Shown here one piece after another: positions 56,366 through 64,000 of a DNA stretch of 64,000 bases. The DNA comes from an uncultured Bacteroidales bacterium (GTDB taxonomy: Bacteria > Bacteroidota > Bacteroidia > Bacteroidales > UBA932), in assembly GCA_900316795.1 (NCBI GenBank), contig ONEF01000003.1:124001-188000 (forward strand). The letters run 5' to 3'. Each line of letters opens with the position of its first letter. Position 1 is the first letter of the stretch. Both the position numbers and the translations under genes were made by a program. Below the pieces are notes generated by a model. The model was not told the origin of the DNA. It was given only the letters and a program-made list of their open reading frames with translations, and made no database searches.

Positions 56366-56821
56366 CATCCACCCAAAGTACCCCCAACATTCCCAAAGTG
56401 TTCCCAACGTCCCTTATTTTGGGACGATAGCCACACTTTCCATACCCAAACGCTTCCACCGTCCCTGTTTTTGGGACGGAAGGCGCACTTTCCATACCTA
56501 AACGCTCCCAGCATTCCAGAAGAGCTCCCAACTTCCCAGAAATGCTCCCAGCATCCAATTAAAACGCCCCCAACATTCCCAAAGTGTTCCCAACGTCCCT
56601 AATTTCGGGACGATAGCCACACTTTCCCCACCTAAATGCTCCCAACGTCCCTGATTTTGGGACGATAGCCACACTTTCCATACCTAAACGCTCCCACCGT
56701 CCCTGTTTTTGGGACGGAAGGCGCACTTTCCATACCTAAATGCTCCCACCGTCCCTGTTTTTGGGACGATAGCCACACTTCCCATACCCAAACGCTCCCA
56801 CCGTCCTGTTTACAGGACAGG
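56366..56821. repeat. 52-bp degenerate tandem repeat field with a hairpin in each unit
   Basis: The 3' hairpin arm GGGACG (or its variant) occurs at 56421, 56473, 56607, 56659, 56711, 56763 and 56815. Successive distances are 52 bases except one gap of 134 (two degenerate units plus 30). Each unit has CGTCCC, a 7-base T-rich loop and GGGACG, then a spacer of type A (ATAGCCACACTT) or B (GAAGGCGCACTT) and a TCCATACC..AAACGCTCCCA linker. The last unit changes to GTCCTG/CAGGAC, keeping the pairing. 52 is not a multiple of 3 and no gene is seen. Confidence 0.85.
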
Positions 56822-56946: not shown

Positions 56947-56982
56947 AATACGTACTTTACAGGCTTACCATCAAACCACAAC
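56947..56982 (-). repeat. decayed terminal CRISPR repeat
   Basis: In exact 66-base register with the array. The 14 bases CATCAAACCACAAC at one end are identical to the repeat and the rest has diverged. It marks the old (trailer) end of the array. Confidence 0.8.
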
Positions 56983-57012: not shown

Positions 57013-59488
57013 GTTGTCTATTATCAGGATTCTACATCAAACCACAACTAAATTGCAAGAATTGATTAACCAATTATAGTTGTCTATTATCAGGATTCTA
57101 CATCAAACCACAACTCTCCTGCCTCATCATCTATCAGGATATGTGTTGTCTATTATCAGGATTCTACATCAAACCACAACTATGCTTCTGGCCATGCTCC
57201 AGTATATTTGTTGTCTATTATCAGGATTCTACATCAAACCACAACATGATCGTAAGAGTAAGTTCGATAGCTATAGTTGTCTATTATCAGGATTCTACAT
57301 CAAACCACAACGCCTCCGGCATATCGGCCTCCGATACAAAAGTTGTCTATTATCAGGATTCTACATCAAACCACAACGGCCCTGAATATGATTTCTTCCA
57401 GAAGAAGTTGTCTATTATCAGGATTCTACATCAAACCACAACGCTAAAGAAAAAACAATGATTGCCCCGGCGGTTGTCTATTATCAGGATTCTACATCAA
57501 ACCACAACTCACAGTGTCTGCATCTGGCAATAAGGTGAGTTGTCTATTATCAGGATTCTACATCAAACCACAACTATTTTCCAGCCGTTTTTACTCTGAA
57601 AATGTTGTCTATTATCAGGATTCTACATCAAACCACAACATTTAGTCAAAAGGGAAAGGACAAACGCGGGTTGTCTATTATCAGGATTCTACATCAAACC
57701 ACAACAACTTATATCGCGAATATCTTTACACATCGTTGTCTATTATCAGGATTCTACATCAAACCACAACCGGCACATTCTTCAATTGCCATATCAATTT
57801 GTTGTCTATTATCAGGATTCTACATCAAACCACAACATGGCAGATTACCAGATATTGAAAGAAGCGTTGTCTATTATCAGGATTCTACATCAAACCACAA
57901 CACGACGCTTGCGTTACCGTATCAAGTGCCGTTGTCTATTATCAGGATTCTACATCAAACCACAACCAATAATGTCGGATTTATAGTAAATGTGACGTTG
58001 TCTATTATCAGGATTCTACATCAAACCACAACTGCGCTCCAGTCTGATGTTCTGATTTTTTTGTTGTCTATTATCAGGATTCTACATCAAACCACAACCC
58101 GCAGATTATAGCAGGCAAACGGGACTATGTTGTCTATTATCAGGATTCTACATCAAACCACAACCAGATCACTGCCTATCCTCTGCAGGATATAGTTGTC
58201 TATTATCAGGATTCTACATCAAACCACAACCGTTATAGAAGTCGTACAATTCAACCCAAAGTTGTCTATTATCAGGATTCTACATCAAACCACAACTAAC
58301 CTTGTTCCCATCCCACAACGTTCATTGTTGTCTATTATCAGGATTCTACATCAAACCACAACCCGGCCGAAATTCAAAGCGTTACCGACATTGTTGTCTA
58401 TTATCAGGATTCTACATCAAACCACAACCACAACAGATGTTCCAAACCGACATCGCCCGTTAAAGTTGTCTATTATCAGGATTCTACATCAAACCACAAC
58501 TCCAATCCATCTTACATTTCACAATTTGAAGTTGTCTATTATCAGGATTCTACATCAAACCACAACTCGTCCATTGCAGACCATCCAACGTTATCGTTGT
58601 CTATTATCAGGATTCTACATCAAACCACAACGGTACGGCATATTGTTCTTTGTCTTCGGTTGTTGTCTATTATCAGGATTCTACATCAAACCACAACTGT
58701 TACTGGCTATCGTCCGAAATCGATTCAGTTGTCTATTATCAGGATTCTACATCAAACCACAACCAACCATCAGTTCGGCAAACTAAAATTGAAGTTGTCT
58801 ATTATCAGGATTCTACATCAAACCACAACTCCTCACAGCAAGGTCTCCCTCTCCTCCCTGTTGTCTATTATCAGGATTCTACATCAAACCACAACTAGGC
58901 CATAATATCAACTTTAGGGTCTACTGTTGTCTATTATCAGGATTCTACATCAAACCACAACCTGGCTCTCTTGTAAATGGTACTTTGTCATGTTGTCTAT
59001 TATCAGGATTCTACATCAAACCACAACTCCTCCACCGGCAATGGTAAGAAGATCCTGGTTGTCTATTATCAGGATTCTACATCAAACCACAACTTGGGAG
59101 GCCTATATTATTCCAGGTGATGGGTTGTCTATTATCAGGATTCTACATCAAACCACAACTCTGAACGCCACCAGAGGAAGAGGCCCCCTGTTGTCTATTA
59201 TCAGGATTCTACATCAAACCACAACTATCTGAGCATGGAACTTGTGAAGCATCCAGTTGTCTATTATCAGGATTCTACATCAAACCACAACTGCTCGTCT
59301 GCGTACCTCATCCGCACCTCGTTGTCTATTATCAGGATTCTACATCAAACCACAACTGCTCGTCAGCATACCTCATACGCACCTCAGTTGTCTATTATCA
59401 GGATTCTACATCAAACCACAACCGTTCCGCTGATGGTTTCCTCAATCCATCCGTTGTCTATTATCAGGATTCTACATCAAACCACAAC
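57013..59488 (-). CRISPR. type II-C CRISPR array, 38 identical 36-nt repeats
   Basis: Thirty-eight repeats, all identical as read, begin GTTGTCTATTATCAGG and end CATCAAACCACAAC on plus. The ends are inverted (GTTGT/ACAAC), typical of type II. Of 37 spacers, 28 are 30 nt, eight are 29 and one is 36 (58429-58464); a further 30-nt spacer lies before the decayed repeat. Sense is set to minus because the minus reading GTTGTGGTTTGATG resembles known II-C crRNA repeats, pairs with the tracrRNA candidate, and matches cas gene direction. The leader end is then at 59488, next to cas2. Spacers 35 and 36 (59292-59320 and 59357-59386) are near-identical. Confidence 0.98.
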
Positions 59489-59507
59489 GTAGGTTGATTT
59501 TTGGTCT

Positions 59508-59604
59508 AAAAAACAGCCATTTAGAGGCGCTGCCAAAGCAAAAAAAAACACCATCTCAAGCCCTACGAAGTAAAATTTGATGTCAGAATTTCCATCCAAA
59601 TATA
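59508..59604 (-). ncRNA. probable tracrRNA with its own promoter
   Basis: Between the cas2 stop and the array. On minus, TATATTTG (59604-59597) is a full -7 element. It is followed after about 4 bases by GGAAATTCTGACATCAAA (from 59593), an anti-repeat: ACAUCAAA pairs with UUUGAUGU of the crRNA repeat, then one bulged G, then AUUCU with AGAAU, and G-U pairs extend toward the spacer side. A small UAC-UUC-GUA hairpin follows. There is a first T9 run (59548-59540), then a weak hairpin CAGC..GCUG and T6 (59513-59508). The length would be about 86 bases, or about 50 if it ends at the first T-run. Confidence 0.6.
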
Positions 59605-59605
59605 G

Positions 59606-59944
59606 CTAAAATAACTCTAACTGTTGAGACTCTGCATTCTTCAGCCCCTCTATCTTACCCCAATAATTATGCATATCACCATATTGTTTGTCAGTCACGC
59701 TCAGTAAACTGATACTCCCACTAGGAGGTAAAATACCTTTTACTCTTTTTGTATGGACCTGCAAGCTTTCATAGGAAGCGCAATTGCGGACATACACGGA
59801 AAACTGCATCATCGAGAAACCGTCACGCATAAGCAATGTGCGGAACTTTGCTGCATTACGGCGTTCGGTTTTCGTGTTTGTCGGCAAATCAAAGAAGACA
59901 AACAACCACATTATTCTATATTCGTTCAAGCGAATCTCGCTCAT
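59606..59944 (-). CDS. cas2: CRISPR-associated endonuclease Cas2
   Basis: Partner of Cas1 in spacer integration. It is 112 residues from the ATG at 59944, which overlaps the cas1 stop as ATGA. The core begins MWLFVFFDLPTNTKTERRN with the conserved aspartate of the first beta strand (FFDLP), then FRTLLMRDGFSMMQFSVYVR and KQYGDMHNYWG. The type II form of this length is usual. A start at the internal methionine (59911) is possible. Confidence 0.93.
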   Translation of the reverse strand: MSEIRLNEYRIMWLFVFFDLPTNTKTERRNAAKFRTLLMRDGFSMMQFSVYVRNCASYESLQVHTKRVKGILPPSGSISLLSVTDKQYGDMHNYWGKIEGLKNAESQQLELF

Positions 59945-60828
59945 ATTGACGGATATACTATTGACTTTACCTCTCCAGAAAAACACTTGACAAGAGAAGC
60001 TGTAGTCATAGACAAAGCAACATCCAACGGACGTTTCATTTTAGGGAAATATGTGTCGCAAAACAAAACTTTCACCAATTCACTCTTTACTTTAGTGTTC
60101 AGTTCACATTCCCCTAATGTCATAATGTTATAGACACATTCATCAACAAAAGGACGGTAGGGCTCCATTATGTCATCTGCCAAAGGAAACGCATTATAAC
60201 GATTCCTGTGAAATATGCCGAATGCCGGAGAAAGTCCAGAACCCATCAAAGCCCTTGCTACAGCTGCACGCAAGATCGCATAACCATAATTCAAGACAGC
60301 ATTAGGATCACCACCCTCCCTATTTCGGATGAAATCCTCCCCAAACAATTGTTTCCAGTAAATCCGGGCCGCTGCACCTTCCTTATTATCTGAATCTCCG
60401 CTCTTCACATTTCTATAGTAAGGGGCTAGCAGATTACCATCTTTCCCCAACTTATTAAGCAATTTCGACTGATTCTTAATCTTTGCTTCTATTATCTGTT
60501 TCCAAAGATTCTTCTTAAGAGGAAGGCTTGCTTCTATCTGCGCACGGTAAACCTCAGCCTGAACAGTATTGGCCTCAAGCGGTTGAAGCATACAATGAGG
60601 CATCTGGTTATTGCCACATATAATCAAAGATGTATTGTTATCAACCAATGCATTCATCAATGGAATGGTCAGAGATATTTGATTGTTGACAATTATCACA
60701 TAACCAAGATCCTCAATTGGAACGGACCGATTGGGTGCATCAGTATCCCTATACTCAACAATCAGCTGGTTGTTCTTCAGCGACAGTTTCGCAGGATTAG
60801 AGAAGTAAACCGCTTTCTTCAACATCAT
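59941..60828 (-). CDS. cas1: CRISPR-associated endonuclease Cas1, type II
   Basis: Integrase for new spacers, acting with Cas2. It is 295 residues. The metal-binding residues are E150 in NKEGAAARIYWKQLFG, H207 in PAFGIFHRNRYNAFPLADD and D219 in LADDIMEPYRP. The N-terminal beta domain has SVPIEDLGYVIIVNNQISL. Its start is one base after the cas9 stop, and it overlaps cas2 by four bases, so cas9-cas1-cas2 is one operon. There is no csn2 or cas4, which fits subtype II-C. Confidence 0.96.
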   Translation of the reverse strand: MMLKKAVYFSNPAKLSLKNNQLIVEYRDTDAPNRSVPIEDLGYVIIVNNQISLTIPLMNALVDNNTSLIICGNNQMPHCMLQPLEANTVQAEVYRAQIEASLPLKKNLWKQIIEAKIKNQSKLLNKLGKDGNLLAPYYRNVKSGDSDNKEGAAARIYWKQLFGEDFIRNREGGDPNAVLNYGYAILRAAVARALMGSGLSPAFGIFHRNRYNAFPLADDIMEPYRPFVDECVYNIMTLGECELNTKVKSELVKVLFCDTYFPKMKRPLDVALSMTTASLVKCFSGEVKSIVYPSI

Positions 60829-60829
60829 A

Positions 60830-63800
60830 CTATCTTCTTATGAAACGAATCTTTCCAGAAGGAGAAAGAGTAAAATCGAAGCCTTCAACCAATGCATTTA
60901 ACTGTGTGTGATAATTCATGATAGCCGCTCGTATATCTTCTCCTCTAATAAACGCACCATTAATTGTTTTTACCTCCTTCGCTGGTCGGGATTCTTGATT
61001 GTACCAAAGATTCACCCTTCCATAATCACGGTTAGACAGACTTAAAACAGACAGTCCAACAACCTTATACAATCTTCTGGTCAACTCTTCCTGGTTGGCC
61101 TCATAGATTTCATCAGGAGTGTTTTCATAGAGAAGAACCATTGTGCCAATCTTCAGAACATACCTGAGTTTGAAACCATTGCTGTCTTCAACAGGAACCA
61201 TATTGGAAGAAACACCCTCATTGACAGCGCCGACAGCATTAAGATTATTTACCAGCTTGAAAGAGCGTTTAACCTTACCTTTCTTGTCAGTTCCTTCGTA
61301 AATACCCATGCAATAGTTTCTGTCATTTGCAACATTGAGTTGCTGCTTGTACTCAAAACGAGATTTGTCTCGCAAATCTTTCAGATGGATAGGATTGGTA
61401 ACGGAAGGGGTAAATATTCTGACCTTCTTGATTTGTATTCCCTTCTGCTCGTTCATCCAAATAGTGCCAGCCATCGCTTCTTTGAAGCCTTTCTCTTCTA
61501 TAGCCTGCTCAACCTTTTGACGGACAACATCATCAACAATCTTTGTTATATCGGTTTTCTCCAGGGATGAAAGAGGCTTTCTGACAACATATTTGATTTC
61601 ATCGTCTCTTTGTATGGCTCCGTAGAAGGTTTCAAGGTGAAGAGCGCCACGAGCAGTATCTCCCTTTGTCATCAATGGCTTACCATCCGGACCTTTCTGG
61701 ATTTCACCTCGCTTTCTCAACAATTTATATGTACGCTTCTTCAGGTTATCTGGTGTATAGTGAGAGACAAGGACCTCTTTGCTGATGTTTTGAACATCTT
61801 CAGTAAAGGTTGCCCAAGGTTTAGGCATTGTCGGACGATTCTTTCCGAACCATCTGAACTCTTCGTCGGCTTTGTAATAGTGAGCCATCTCGGAGTATTC
61901 CTTAGGACCGATGCAGGCTATTACGATTGCATCTACCGTATGATTGAGGAAAGTGCTACGGTCTTTCTTTTCGTCCTCCTGGAGGCCCCACATCTTGCGG
62001 AACTGTGATGTGGTCAAACCCTTGACTGTGTATATGTGAGTAAAGATGGTTCTCAAATAAGGACGTGCATACTTAGATATAATGCTGTTGTCAACATCCT
62101 GATTCTTTCTATAGTCGGAAGGAACCTCCTTCATAAGGAATTTGCCGTACTTGTCAGAAAGATAATTCCTTTCATATTCCAGAAGCCTGCGCTTTTGAAT
62201 AATAGCGTCTCGCACCTCTTTGGTTGCAGCACTGCCACCCTTCAGTTTTTCTATCTGTTTCCTAAGCTCCTCAATCCTTTCTTTTACTGGTTCAAGCCGG
62301 ATAAGAATTTCCTGATAATTTGACAATTGAGAAGGAATCTTGTTTTTCTTTACATCTCTGTTAAACTTGTTGTTACAAAGAGTTTTGTTTTCCAAAGCGT
62401 CTTCTCCGCCCAAGCTTCTTGGAATAGTATGCTCAATGTCGTATTGCGGATTAGAGCCAAGGAACTGAGAAAGAGCTATTCTCTCTCCTGTGTAAATACA
62501 TATATGCCCTTGCTCTTCCCATAAACGATACTTTTCAATATCCGTCAGTGTCGGTTGCGCATCAATGCCATGTTCACGGAAATGTTTAATAATCTCTTCT
62601 CTGAACTCGTTGTTCTTCTTCTCCCTATCTCGCTGATATCTTTCAAGAGCTTTGCGCCTATTGGCATCATTAAGAGAGCGGCTATATTCAATGTGGATTT
62701 TAGTGTCTTTGTCTATCTCGCCATTCTTTATCAAATCGTTCACAAGAGCCCTTAACCTAAACAGAGCCCTCATAGCCATAGGATTCTTGAAAGAGTTCGT
62801 TCTCGGAGAGCCTAGGAAACCTGTGTTAGATTTAGCATAAACATCAATCATAGAAGGATGATAGAGCCTCTCATAATGAGCAGCGCCCAAATCAAAGTTG
62901 TCCATCAGGAATTCTTTGATCCTCTGCTCTATTGTTTCTTTTGTAGGCGAAGGATTATCAACGATAACACCTATCTCTCGTTCTATGATTTTACGATTTT
63001 CGGGGTTGGAAATAATTTCTTTAGGAACAATGCTCGAGATATTGGCCAAAAAGACTGCATGAGAATATTTGAATCCCCTACGCAAGAACACTAATATCTT
63101 ATTGATGGCATTTAGGCTAAGTGAAGAGTAATCATTCCCGATAGAGATCTTGCTGAATTTTAGAGCCTCTTCTTCAGATAACTGTAGTTTTTCCTTTGCC
63201 CAGGCTCTAAGTTTTTCATCATCGCTGAAGAAAAACAAAGAATGCCATACATCATTAACAATTTGCTCTTTGGTCTTTTGCTTTTTATCTGTGTATCTAG
63301 AAATAATGCCCTCTTCCCAATTGTCTCCAAAGATTTCTTTTAAACCGGCAATCACAGGACAACCTGAAACAGAAGTAAACATCTTGTAGTTGAAACGGTA
63401 CGGCTTTTCATCAGGGTCTTTGTAAAAAGCATACTGCCCTCTAGCAGACAAGGCTTTGGCTATATCCTCAAACGGGAATTGTTTCTTGCTCTTGCGGAAG
63501 AAAAGAGGAAGGATCTTAATTATTTCCTCCCCATTCAACGGACGCATATCCTCCTCATATGGAGTCTTGACTTTGATGTTGTTGAGGAAAGACCACATAC
63601 GGAATTCCTCAAATCGAGGATGAGAAACAGGGCATCTGGTTTTCTTAGTCTCAAACTTGCAATGGCCGACAGAGCCCTTCTGCGATTTCAGAGGTCTTTG
63701 GAAGAAGATTGCCCTTTCGAGTTGTTTCTTGATTGAGTCAGAAATTCCTTGAATTTTGCAAATGGCATCAAATTCATCTTTGTAGTGTTGTCTAGAAGTA

Positions 63801-64000
63801 TAGTGAGCACGAATCCTTTCTTTTCCGTAGATAGTATAGAAATACTCACCGATATACTTGCAGCCACTTTCTTCAAGAGCTTTATTCAAAGCGGATATGT
63901 CATCTTTAACCTTGCCATTAGATTCTTTTGTATTCTCTTTTCTATTGCTAAGGAAGCCCCTTCGCTGAGAAAGATGATACATAACACGGCCTAAGATGTA
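60830..64000 (-). CDS. cas9: Cas9 endonuclease, type II-C, N-terminus cut by window edge
   Basis: About 1057 residues are visible; RuvC-I and the true start lie beyond base 64000. The visible part opens inside the bridge helix, YILGRVMYHLSQRRGF (arginine-rich). The REC lobe follows. RuvC-II is in TKIHIEYSRSLNDANRR (about 62670-62705), with the conserved glutamate. The HNH nuclease is YDIEHTIPRSLGGEDALENK (about 62395-62450) with its catalytic histidine and the later NKFNR. RuvC-III is FLNHTVDAIVIACIG (about 61916-61955) with the conserved aspartate. The C-terminal wedge/PAM-interacting part ends SGKIRFIRR. All visible nuclease motifs are intact. The gene is more A/T-rich than the core genes to its left, suggesting transfer. 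Confidence 0.97.
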   Translation of the reverse strand, partial: YILGRVMYHLSQRRGFLSNRKENTKESNGKVKDDISALNKALEESGCKYIGEYFYTIYGKERIRAHYTSRQHYKDEFDAICKIQGISDSIKKQLERAIFFQRPLKSQKGSVGHCKFETKKTRCPVSHPRFEEFRMWSFLNNIKVKTPYEEDMRPLNGEEIIKILPLFFRKSKKQFPFEDIAKALSARGQYAFYKDPDEKPYRFNYKMFTSVSGCPVIAGLKEIFGDNWEEGIISRYTDKKQKTKEQIVNDVWHSLFFFSDDEKLRAWAKEKLQLSEEEALKFSKISIGNDYSSLSLNAINKILVFLRRGFKYSHAVFLANISSIVPKEIISNPENRKIIEREIGVIVDNPSPTKETIEQRIKEFLMDNFDLGAAHYERLYHPSMIDVYAKSNTGFLGSPRTNSFKNPMAMRALFRLRALVNDLIKNGEIDKDTKIHIEYSRSLNDANRRKALERYQRDREKKNNEFREEIIKHFREHGIDAQPTLTDIEKYRLWEEQGHICIYTGERIALSQFLGSNPQYDIEHTIPRSLGGEDALENKTLCNNKFNRDVKKNKIPSQLSNYQEILIRLEPVKERIEELRKQIEKLKGGSAATKEVRDAIIQKRRLLEYERNYLSDKYGKFLMKEVPSDYRKNQDVDNSIISKYARPYLRTIFTHIYTVKGLTTSQFRKMWGLQEDEKKDRSTFLNHTVDAIVIACIGPKEYSEMAHYYKADEEFRWFGKNRPTMPKPWATFTEDVQNISKEVLVSHYTPDNLKKRTYKLLRKRGEIQKGPDGKPLMTKGDTARGALHLETFYGAIQRDDEIKYVVRKPLSSLEKTDITKIVDDVVRQKVEQAIEEKGFKEAMAGTIWMNEQKGIQIKKVRIFTPSVTNPIHLKDLRDKSRFEYKQQLNVANDRNYCMGIYEGTDKKGKVKRSFKLVNNLNAVGAVNEGVSSNMVPVEDSNGFKLRYVLKIGTMVLLYENTPDEIYEANQEELTRRLYKVVGLSVLSLSNRDYGRVNLWYNQESRPAKEVKTINGAFIRGEDIRAAIMNYHTQLNALVEGFDFTLSPSGKIRFIRR

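Follow-up and report, generated by a model that had tools for sequence, protein, structure and literature searches.

How does a single CRISPR array come to hold two neighbouring spacers that are almost, but not exactly, alike? The question is raised by a locus at the end of the window, by which we mean the whole 64,000-nucleotide stretch of Bacteroidales DNA that was analyzed. Two spacers of this locus, A and B (Table 1), are identical at 26 of 29 positions on the same strand; counted from the PAM end, their three differences lie at 9, 12 and 21 nt. Recomputation returned exactly the coordinates, lengths and three differences reported in the initial annotation. A and B are flush at the PAM-proximal (low-coordinate) end, and B is one base longer at the PAM-distal end. 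They form the sole near-identical pair among the 37 spacers of the window, the next best pair agreeing at 18 of 30 positions. As set out below, A and B very probably derive from a homologous site that was acquired twice, once from each of two diverged relatives of the same phage or mobile element.

Table 1. Features of the CRISPR-Cas locus in window coordinates.
Feature	Position	Strand	Details
Degenerate terminal repeat	56947..56982	-	leader-distal end; CATCAAACCACAAC end kept, 66-nt register with array
CRISPR array	57013..59488	-	38 identical 36-nt repeats, 37 spacers
Spacer A	59292..59320	-	29 nt, third from leader, probably the older of the pair
Spacer B	59357..59386	-	30 nt, second from leader, probably the newer of the pair
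Putative leader, cas2 side	59489..59550	-	...CAACCTAC adjoining first repeat
cas2	59606..59986	-	TIGR01573, 1.1e-19
cas1, type II	59941..60828	-	TIGR03639, 2.8e-89
cas9, cut by window edge	60830..64000	-	TIGR01865, 2.9e-104

Organization of the CRISPR-Cas locus

The locus, on the minus strand, is assigned to type II-C CRISPR-Cas; cas9, cas1 and cas2 stand in direct succession before the array, and neither csn2 nor cas4 intervenes between them. The full cas9 frame spans 60830-64426 in window numbering, encodes 1198 aa and scores 350 bits with TIGR01865 (cut-off 100); cas1 and cas2 both exceed their family cut-offs as well. The full frame contains DLGTNSIGW and DIEHTIPRS, which we take to be the RuvC-I and HNH motifs, respectively. 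Named close relatives of this Cas9 include ruminant records, at 93% for yak and goat and 90% for water buffalo.

The array repeat, searched with up to three mismatches, has 38 matches in the window's genome, all of them within the array. Most spacers measure 30 nt (n=28), eight measure 29 nt and one measures 36 nt. The 36-nt spacer (58429-58464) starts with CACAAC, the same six bases that end the repeat, and therefore looks like a 30-nt spacer with a six-base duplication of the repeat end. Between the far end of the array and the neighbouring genes lie 52-nt tandem repeats (56402-56510 and 56588-56806).

Orientation of the array and order of the two spacers

A tracrRNA-like element is located just beyond the window (L009:7999-8080). 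Counting G-U pairs, 19 of 22 positions of its anti-repeat pair with the minus-strand repeat; a nexus-like hairpin and a terminator hairpin follow (z = -4.77). Because of this pairing, the crRNA strand is taken to be the minus strand. Cas9 recognizes a PAM at the 3' side of the protospacer, which together with the minus crRNA strand places the PAM-proximal end of each spacer at its low-coordinate end.

The side of the leader was judged by comparison with related loci. The 45 nt beside the first repeat show an in-register identity of 0.60-0.80 between the window, L012, L014 and L017. Furthermore, in L015, L017, L018, L020, L022 and L058 the terminal repeat carries 3-8 mismatches and the first repeat none. 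On the 3' side, the weight of this comparison is carried chiefly by L014, L017 and the terminal repeats, since what flanks the L012 and L013 arrays there is probably a spacer left incomplete by the contig end. These observations support a leader on the cas2 side of the window array, which would lie at the crRNA 5' side. The placement of the two spacers as second and third from the leader agrees with this, given the cas2-side flank conserved in sister species and the partial terminal repeat at the far end, whose register was worked out by hand. New spacers are usually inserted at the leader end. If this was the case here, spacer B was acquired later and spacer A earlier, because the leader appears to be on the cas2 side.

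Near-identical spacers in other cas9-linked arrays

We surveyed cas9-linked arrays at the levels of family, order, class and phylum, using collections in which each species is represented by a single genome. The survey comprised 80 loci with a total of 57 distinct arrays, 1,408 spacers and 25,003 within-array pairs. The first 65 loci yielded 43 arrays (L059 and L069 repeat other arrays, L093 was set aside as non-CRISPR and 19 loci yielded none), and a second set of 15 loci yielded 14. One record, L022, is titled Lachnospiraceae, and the surveyed arrays are therefore not all certain to be from Bacteroidota. Outside the window, strand assignment rests on the GTTGTGG repeat start only.

In a cross-array control of 965,525 same-strand comparisons, no pair showed six or fewer differences, while seven differences occurred twice and eight differences 15 times. 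Within arrays, 22 exact duplicate pairs were found among the 57 arrays, all of equal length, and not one of the 25,003 pairs showed exactly one difference. Nine same-strand pairs, the window pair included, showed 2-5 differences (Table 2). The clean cross-array control, combined with the other within-array near pairs, indicates that the near-identity of A and B is real and belongs to a recurring class. The earlier statement that independent sampling of the same site is unlikely by chance thus holds for unrelated sequences, as measured by this control, but not for re-sampling of one site, which recurs in other arrays.

Table 2. Same-strand spacer pairs with 2-5 differences within one array (W, window; L numbers, surveyed loci).
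Array	Spacers	Differences	Ends
W	2/3	3	unequal length, PAM-side flush
L018	6/23	2	flush at both ends
L070	10/14	3	unequal length, PAM-side flush
L080	25/30	3	unequal length, PAM-side flush
L084	22/31	3	shifted one base at both ends
L086	2/6	5	flush at both ends
L114	8/14	4	unequal length, PAM-side flush (by hand)
L120	49/53	4	fifth unequal-length pair, strand tie
L125	43/53	3	shifted one base at both ends

All four unequal-length pairs with a repeat-assigned strand (W, L070, L080 and L114) are flush on the PAM side. For L120 and L125, the repeat scores are tied between the two strands, and no strand was assigned; L120 was therefore left out of the flush count. As oriented by the script, the L120 pair is flush at the other end and would count against the PAM-side rule, and three of its four differences are located at the last three bases. 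The eight same-strand pairs other than the window pair have 3-16 spacers in between. In addition, an opposite-strand near pair was found in L113, where spacer 44 differs from the duplicated spacer 11/20 at 5 positions over 28. A further opposite-strand pair, in L076, which matches at 18 of 22 positions, was dropped as chance.

Two of the exact duplications are of note in their own right. In L080 (11430-15278), nine consecutive spacers form an exact tandem block duplication, and in the sister species locus L017 (13493-14639) one adjacent spacer is exactly duplicated, an example of in-array duplication.

From pairs of this kind one can read which viral sites are taken more than once and how far the target had diverged from one encounter to the next, with no need for the virus itself. 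With nine same-strand examples and a chance control, PAM-anchored re-sampling becomes measurable in natural type II-C arrays.

Codon phase of the differences

Two reading frames, EVRMRYADE on the minus strand and CSSAYLIRT on the plus strand, are open in both A and B and unchanged between them. The shared peptides of the initial annotation are thereby retained as open and synonymous, except that the plus peptide had been given as CSSAYLIRTS, as the 29-nt spacer A encodes CSSAYLIRT plus two bases. In 8.3% of simulations (0.083), at least one open frame survives three random substitutions of these kinds unaltered, so that the synonymous pattern of A and B by itself is suggestive rather than strong. 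Codon use modestly favours the minus reading (density 0.36 vs 0.075), presuming that the codons of the target resemble those of the window's genome.

A stronger case of a synonymous near pair is found in L086 (2/6), where all five differences fall in one codon phase and all are synonymous (GNAATVTTN), with a one-phase chance of 0.007. In L125 (43/53), all three differences likewise share one phase and leave QDGNASLHD unchanged. Over ten pairs, 26 of 35 differences lie in the commonest phase of their pair (p = 0.003). This becomes 23 of 32 when the window pair is left out (p = 0.013) and 17 of 23 when L120 and L113 are left out as well (p = 0.028). Wholly one-phase pairs number three of ten (p = 0.032), and two of nine without the window pair, which is not significant (p = 0.15). 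Seven of the ten near pairs are not confined to a single codon phase, which counts against the coding-site reading. As a whole, the codon-phase data are best accommodated if homologous coding sites were acquired independently from related elements. The claim that the target of A and B is very likely a coding gene under purifying selection is too strong when drawn from three differences, but it gains from the concentration of differences in one phase, which extends to the nine other pairs.

Search for protospacers

The protospacer search proposed earlier for A and B returned no source in viral contigs or in 398 family genomes, nor, with spacer B only, in phages or plasmids. More specifically, viral contigs contained no protospacer for the exact two-allele pattern, and none for either peptide reading with third-position wobble, the plus reading leaving aside the alternative codons for Ser, Leu and Arg. 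In the viral contigs, one half-spacer pattern gave a single match with 8 mismatches and a second gave twelve with 7-11 mismatches, none of them a protospacer. The single match of the first pattern, in L025, happens to read MRYADEQ at an ATG; it was rejected because a few such chance matches are expected by a rough estimate. Spacer B gave two 16-base matches in phages, neither a protospacer, and zero matches in plasmids. Among the 398 family genomes, which include the window's own, only the array itself matched with up to three mismatches, so that no self-target was found in this 92.75% complete genome.

For the L086 pair, the search gave no protospacer and two weak matches at E = 0.6 (H3 and H4); H3 has 6 mismatches and is located in what reads as an acyltransferase-like frame. 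Protospacers for the L018 and L070 pairs were likewise not found. Absence from the searched collections decides nothing on the protospacer or its PAM.

Origin of the near-identical pair

Sampling of the same site from two related elements, as put forward in the initial annotation, is the best-supported reading of the pair, as the near-identity is beyond chance and recurs elsewhere. On both occasions, the type II-C machinery would take the site at one and the same PAM-defined position, and reuse of this position would let the PAM-proximal ends coincide while the PAM-distal end differs by one base. The two source elements would then share a PAM. Measured from the PAM end, spacer A, the older of the two, would have mismatches to element B at 9, 12 and 21 nt, two of them in or near the seed. 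We infer reduced cross-protection between A and B, such that recording B would have given new protection. Counting against this reading are the one-base shifts in L084 and L125, the opposite-strand pair of L113 and the lack of a protospacer for A or B in the collections searched. The observation is confirmed, and the mechanism is ordinary CRISPR biology.

It is very unlikely that one spacer was duplicated within the array and one copy then mutated. The 22 exact pairs, including the nine-spacer block of L080 and the adjacent pair of L017, show that duplication takes place, and A and B are adjacent. However, decay of a duplicate should pass through one difference, where no pair was found, and for the class as a whole it is unlikely because the exact and diverged groups separate with nothing in between. 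In the window itself, all 38 repeats are unmutated, yet the spacers differ at 3 of 29 positions; A and B differ in length by one, whereas 22 of 22 exact pairs are of equal length; and none of the three changes alters the peptide of an open frame, at the simulated chance given above. Adjacency would also suit a single element, carrying one gene or domain in two diverged copies, as the source of both spacers, since consecutive spacers can stem from one infection. Such an origin requires a special source, and the spacing of the other eight same-strand pairs fits separate encounters better, making it, too, a very unlikely account. An assembly artefact, in which a single array was pieced together from strains with different versions of one spacer, is extremely improbable, even for an incomplete genome of 27 contigs whose sister records suggest a metagenome source: both units are in normal register with intact repeats on a 269-kb contig, and joined variants would usually replace rather than follow one another.

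A stronger version of separate acquisition from two relatives, and one compatible with it, holds that spacer A, mismatched to a variant or escape phage, directed re-acquisition at the same site in a guide-directed, priming-like manner. We regard this as unlikely. Spacer A does match the target of spacer B partially, with three mismatches, and is the older of the two if insertion was at the leader end. Across six pairs, 12 of 19 differences fall in the 12 nt nearest the PAM end (uncorrected p = 0.046; three pairs found later are not in this test), but cut-offs of 8, 10 and 14 nt give no significant clustering (p = 0.43, 0.17 and 0.14). The nine pairs are closer in their arrays than random (p = 0.030), but p rises to 0.117 when the window pair is left out. 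Considering the window array alone, the probability of adjacency is 0.054. Among nine pairs, at least one adjacent pair has a probability of 0.43, so that adjacency needs no priming, and the priming-like recruitment or escape capture raised in the initial annotation is not required. Priming has been reported for type II-A (PMC8265633), but in the portion of that work drawn on here 61 of 111 new protospacers lie within 2.5 kb of the partly matched site, and same-site re-acquisition is not described. As a general scheme for Bacteroidota type II-C, a mismatched crRNA would guide Cas9-Cas1-Cas2 to the same PAM site, and the next spacer would be the variant's version. Such in-place updating is possible but not supported, and we consider it quite unlikely.

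Comparison with known systems

Population studies of other systems have dealt with variant spacers that target a single site. In a narrow phrase search, the open-licence literature gave no passage on a type II-C array that carries the same site in two diverged versions, and we make no claim of a first description for pairs like A and B.

The type II-C system of Flavobacterium columnare (PMC8092290) resembles the window locus in its 36-bp repeats with a GTTGT end, in acquisition by Cas1/Cas2 and in a PAM downstream of the protospacer, and its spacers are similarly drawn from a limited, unevenly spread protospacer pool. Bacteroides fragilis (PMC9367070) offers a parallel in many spacers against one mobile element, for which the authors leave priming or independent acquisition open. 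Unlike those, the two spacers in the window concern the same homologous site in two sequence versions. In Streptococcus mutans type II-A (PMC8265633), a native spacer partly matches a phage from which new spacers are then taken, a similar situation to that of A and B; there, however, protospacers are described by their distance from the old one, whereas the window presents the same site, seen in sequence data alone.

Protospacer variants also arise in F. columnare phages facing spacers (PMC5524643). Four changes in protospacers of C2, the second locus, are non-synonymous in that report, in contrast to the synonymous differences of the window pair, which fit standing divergence between relatives better than fresh escape. 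In Flavobacterium metagenomes (PMC4814470), spacers with up to five substitutions were clustered as biologically similar, and 1-3% were self-complementary spacers from the same protospacer. Those spacers are pooled amplicons, for which clustering partly removes sequencing error, and do not represent two versions in one array.

Finally, the side of the leader relative to the crRNA strand appears to flip within the Bacteroidota type II-C systems, in a comparison in which strand was assigned by repeat start only. In the window's clade, repeats at the crRNA 3' end are degenerate and the 5' flank is conserved. The leader of this clade, at the crRNA 5' side, differs from that of F. columnare, in which, according to the relevant part of the report (PMC8092290), crRNA transcription runs toward the leader and the PAM ends face it. 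In L085, L092, L101, L113, L114 and L116, it is the first repeat that carries mismatches (1-13), and 3' flank agreement is 0.71 for L085/L101 and L103/L108, as expected from that part of the F. columnare report.
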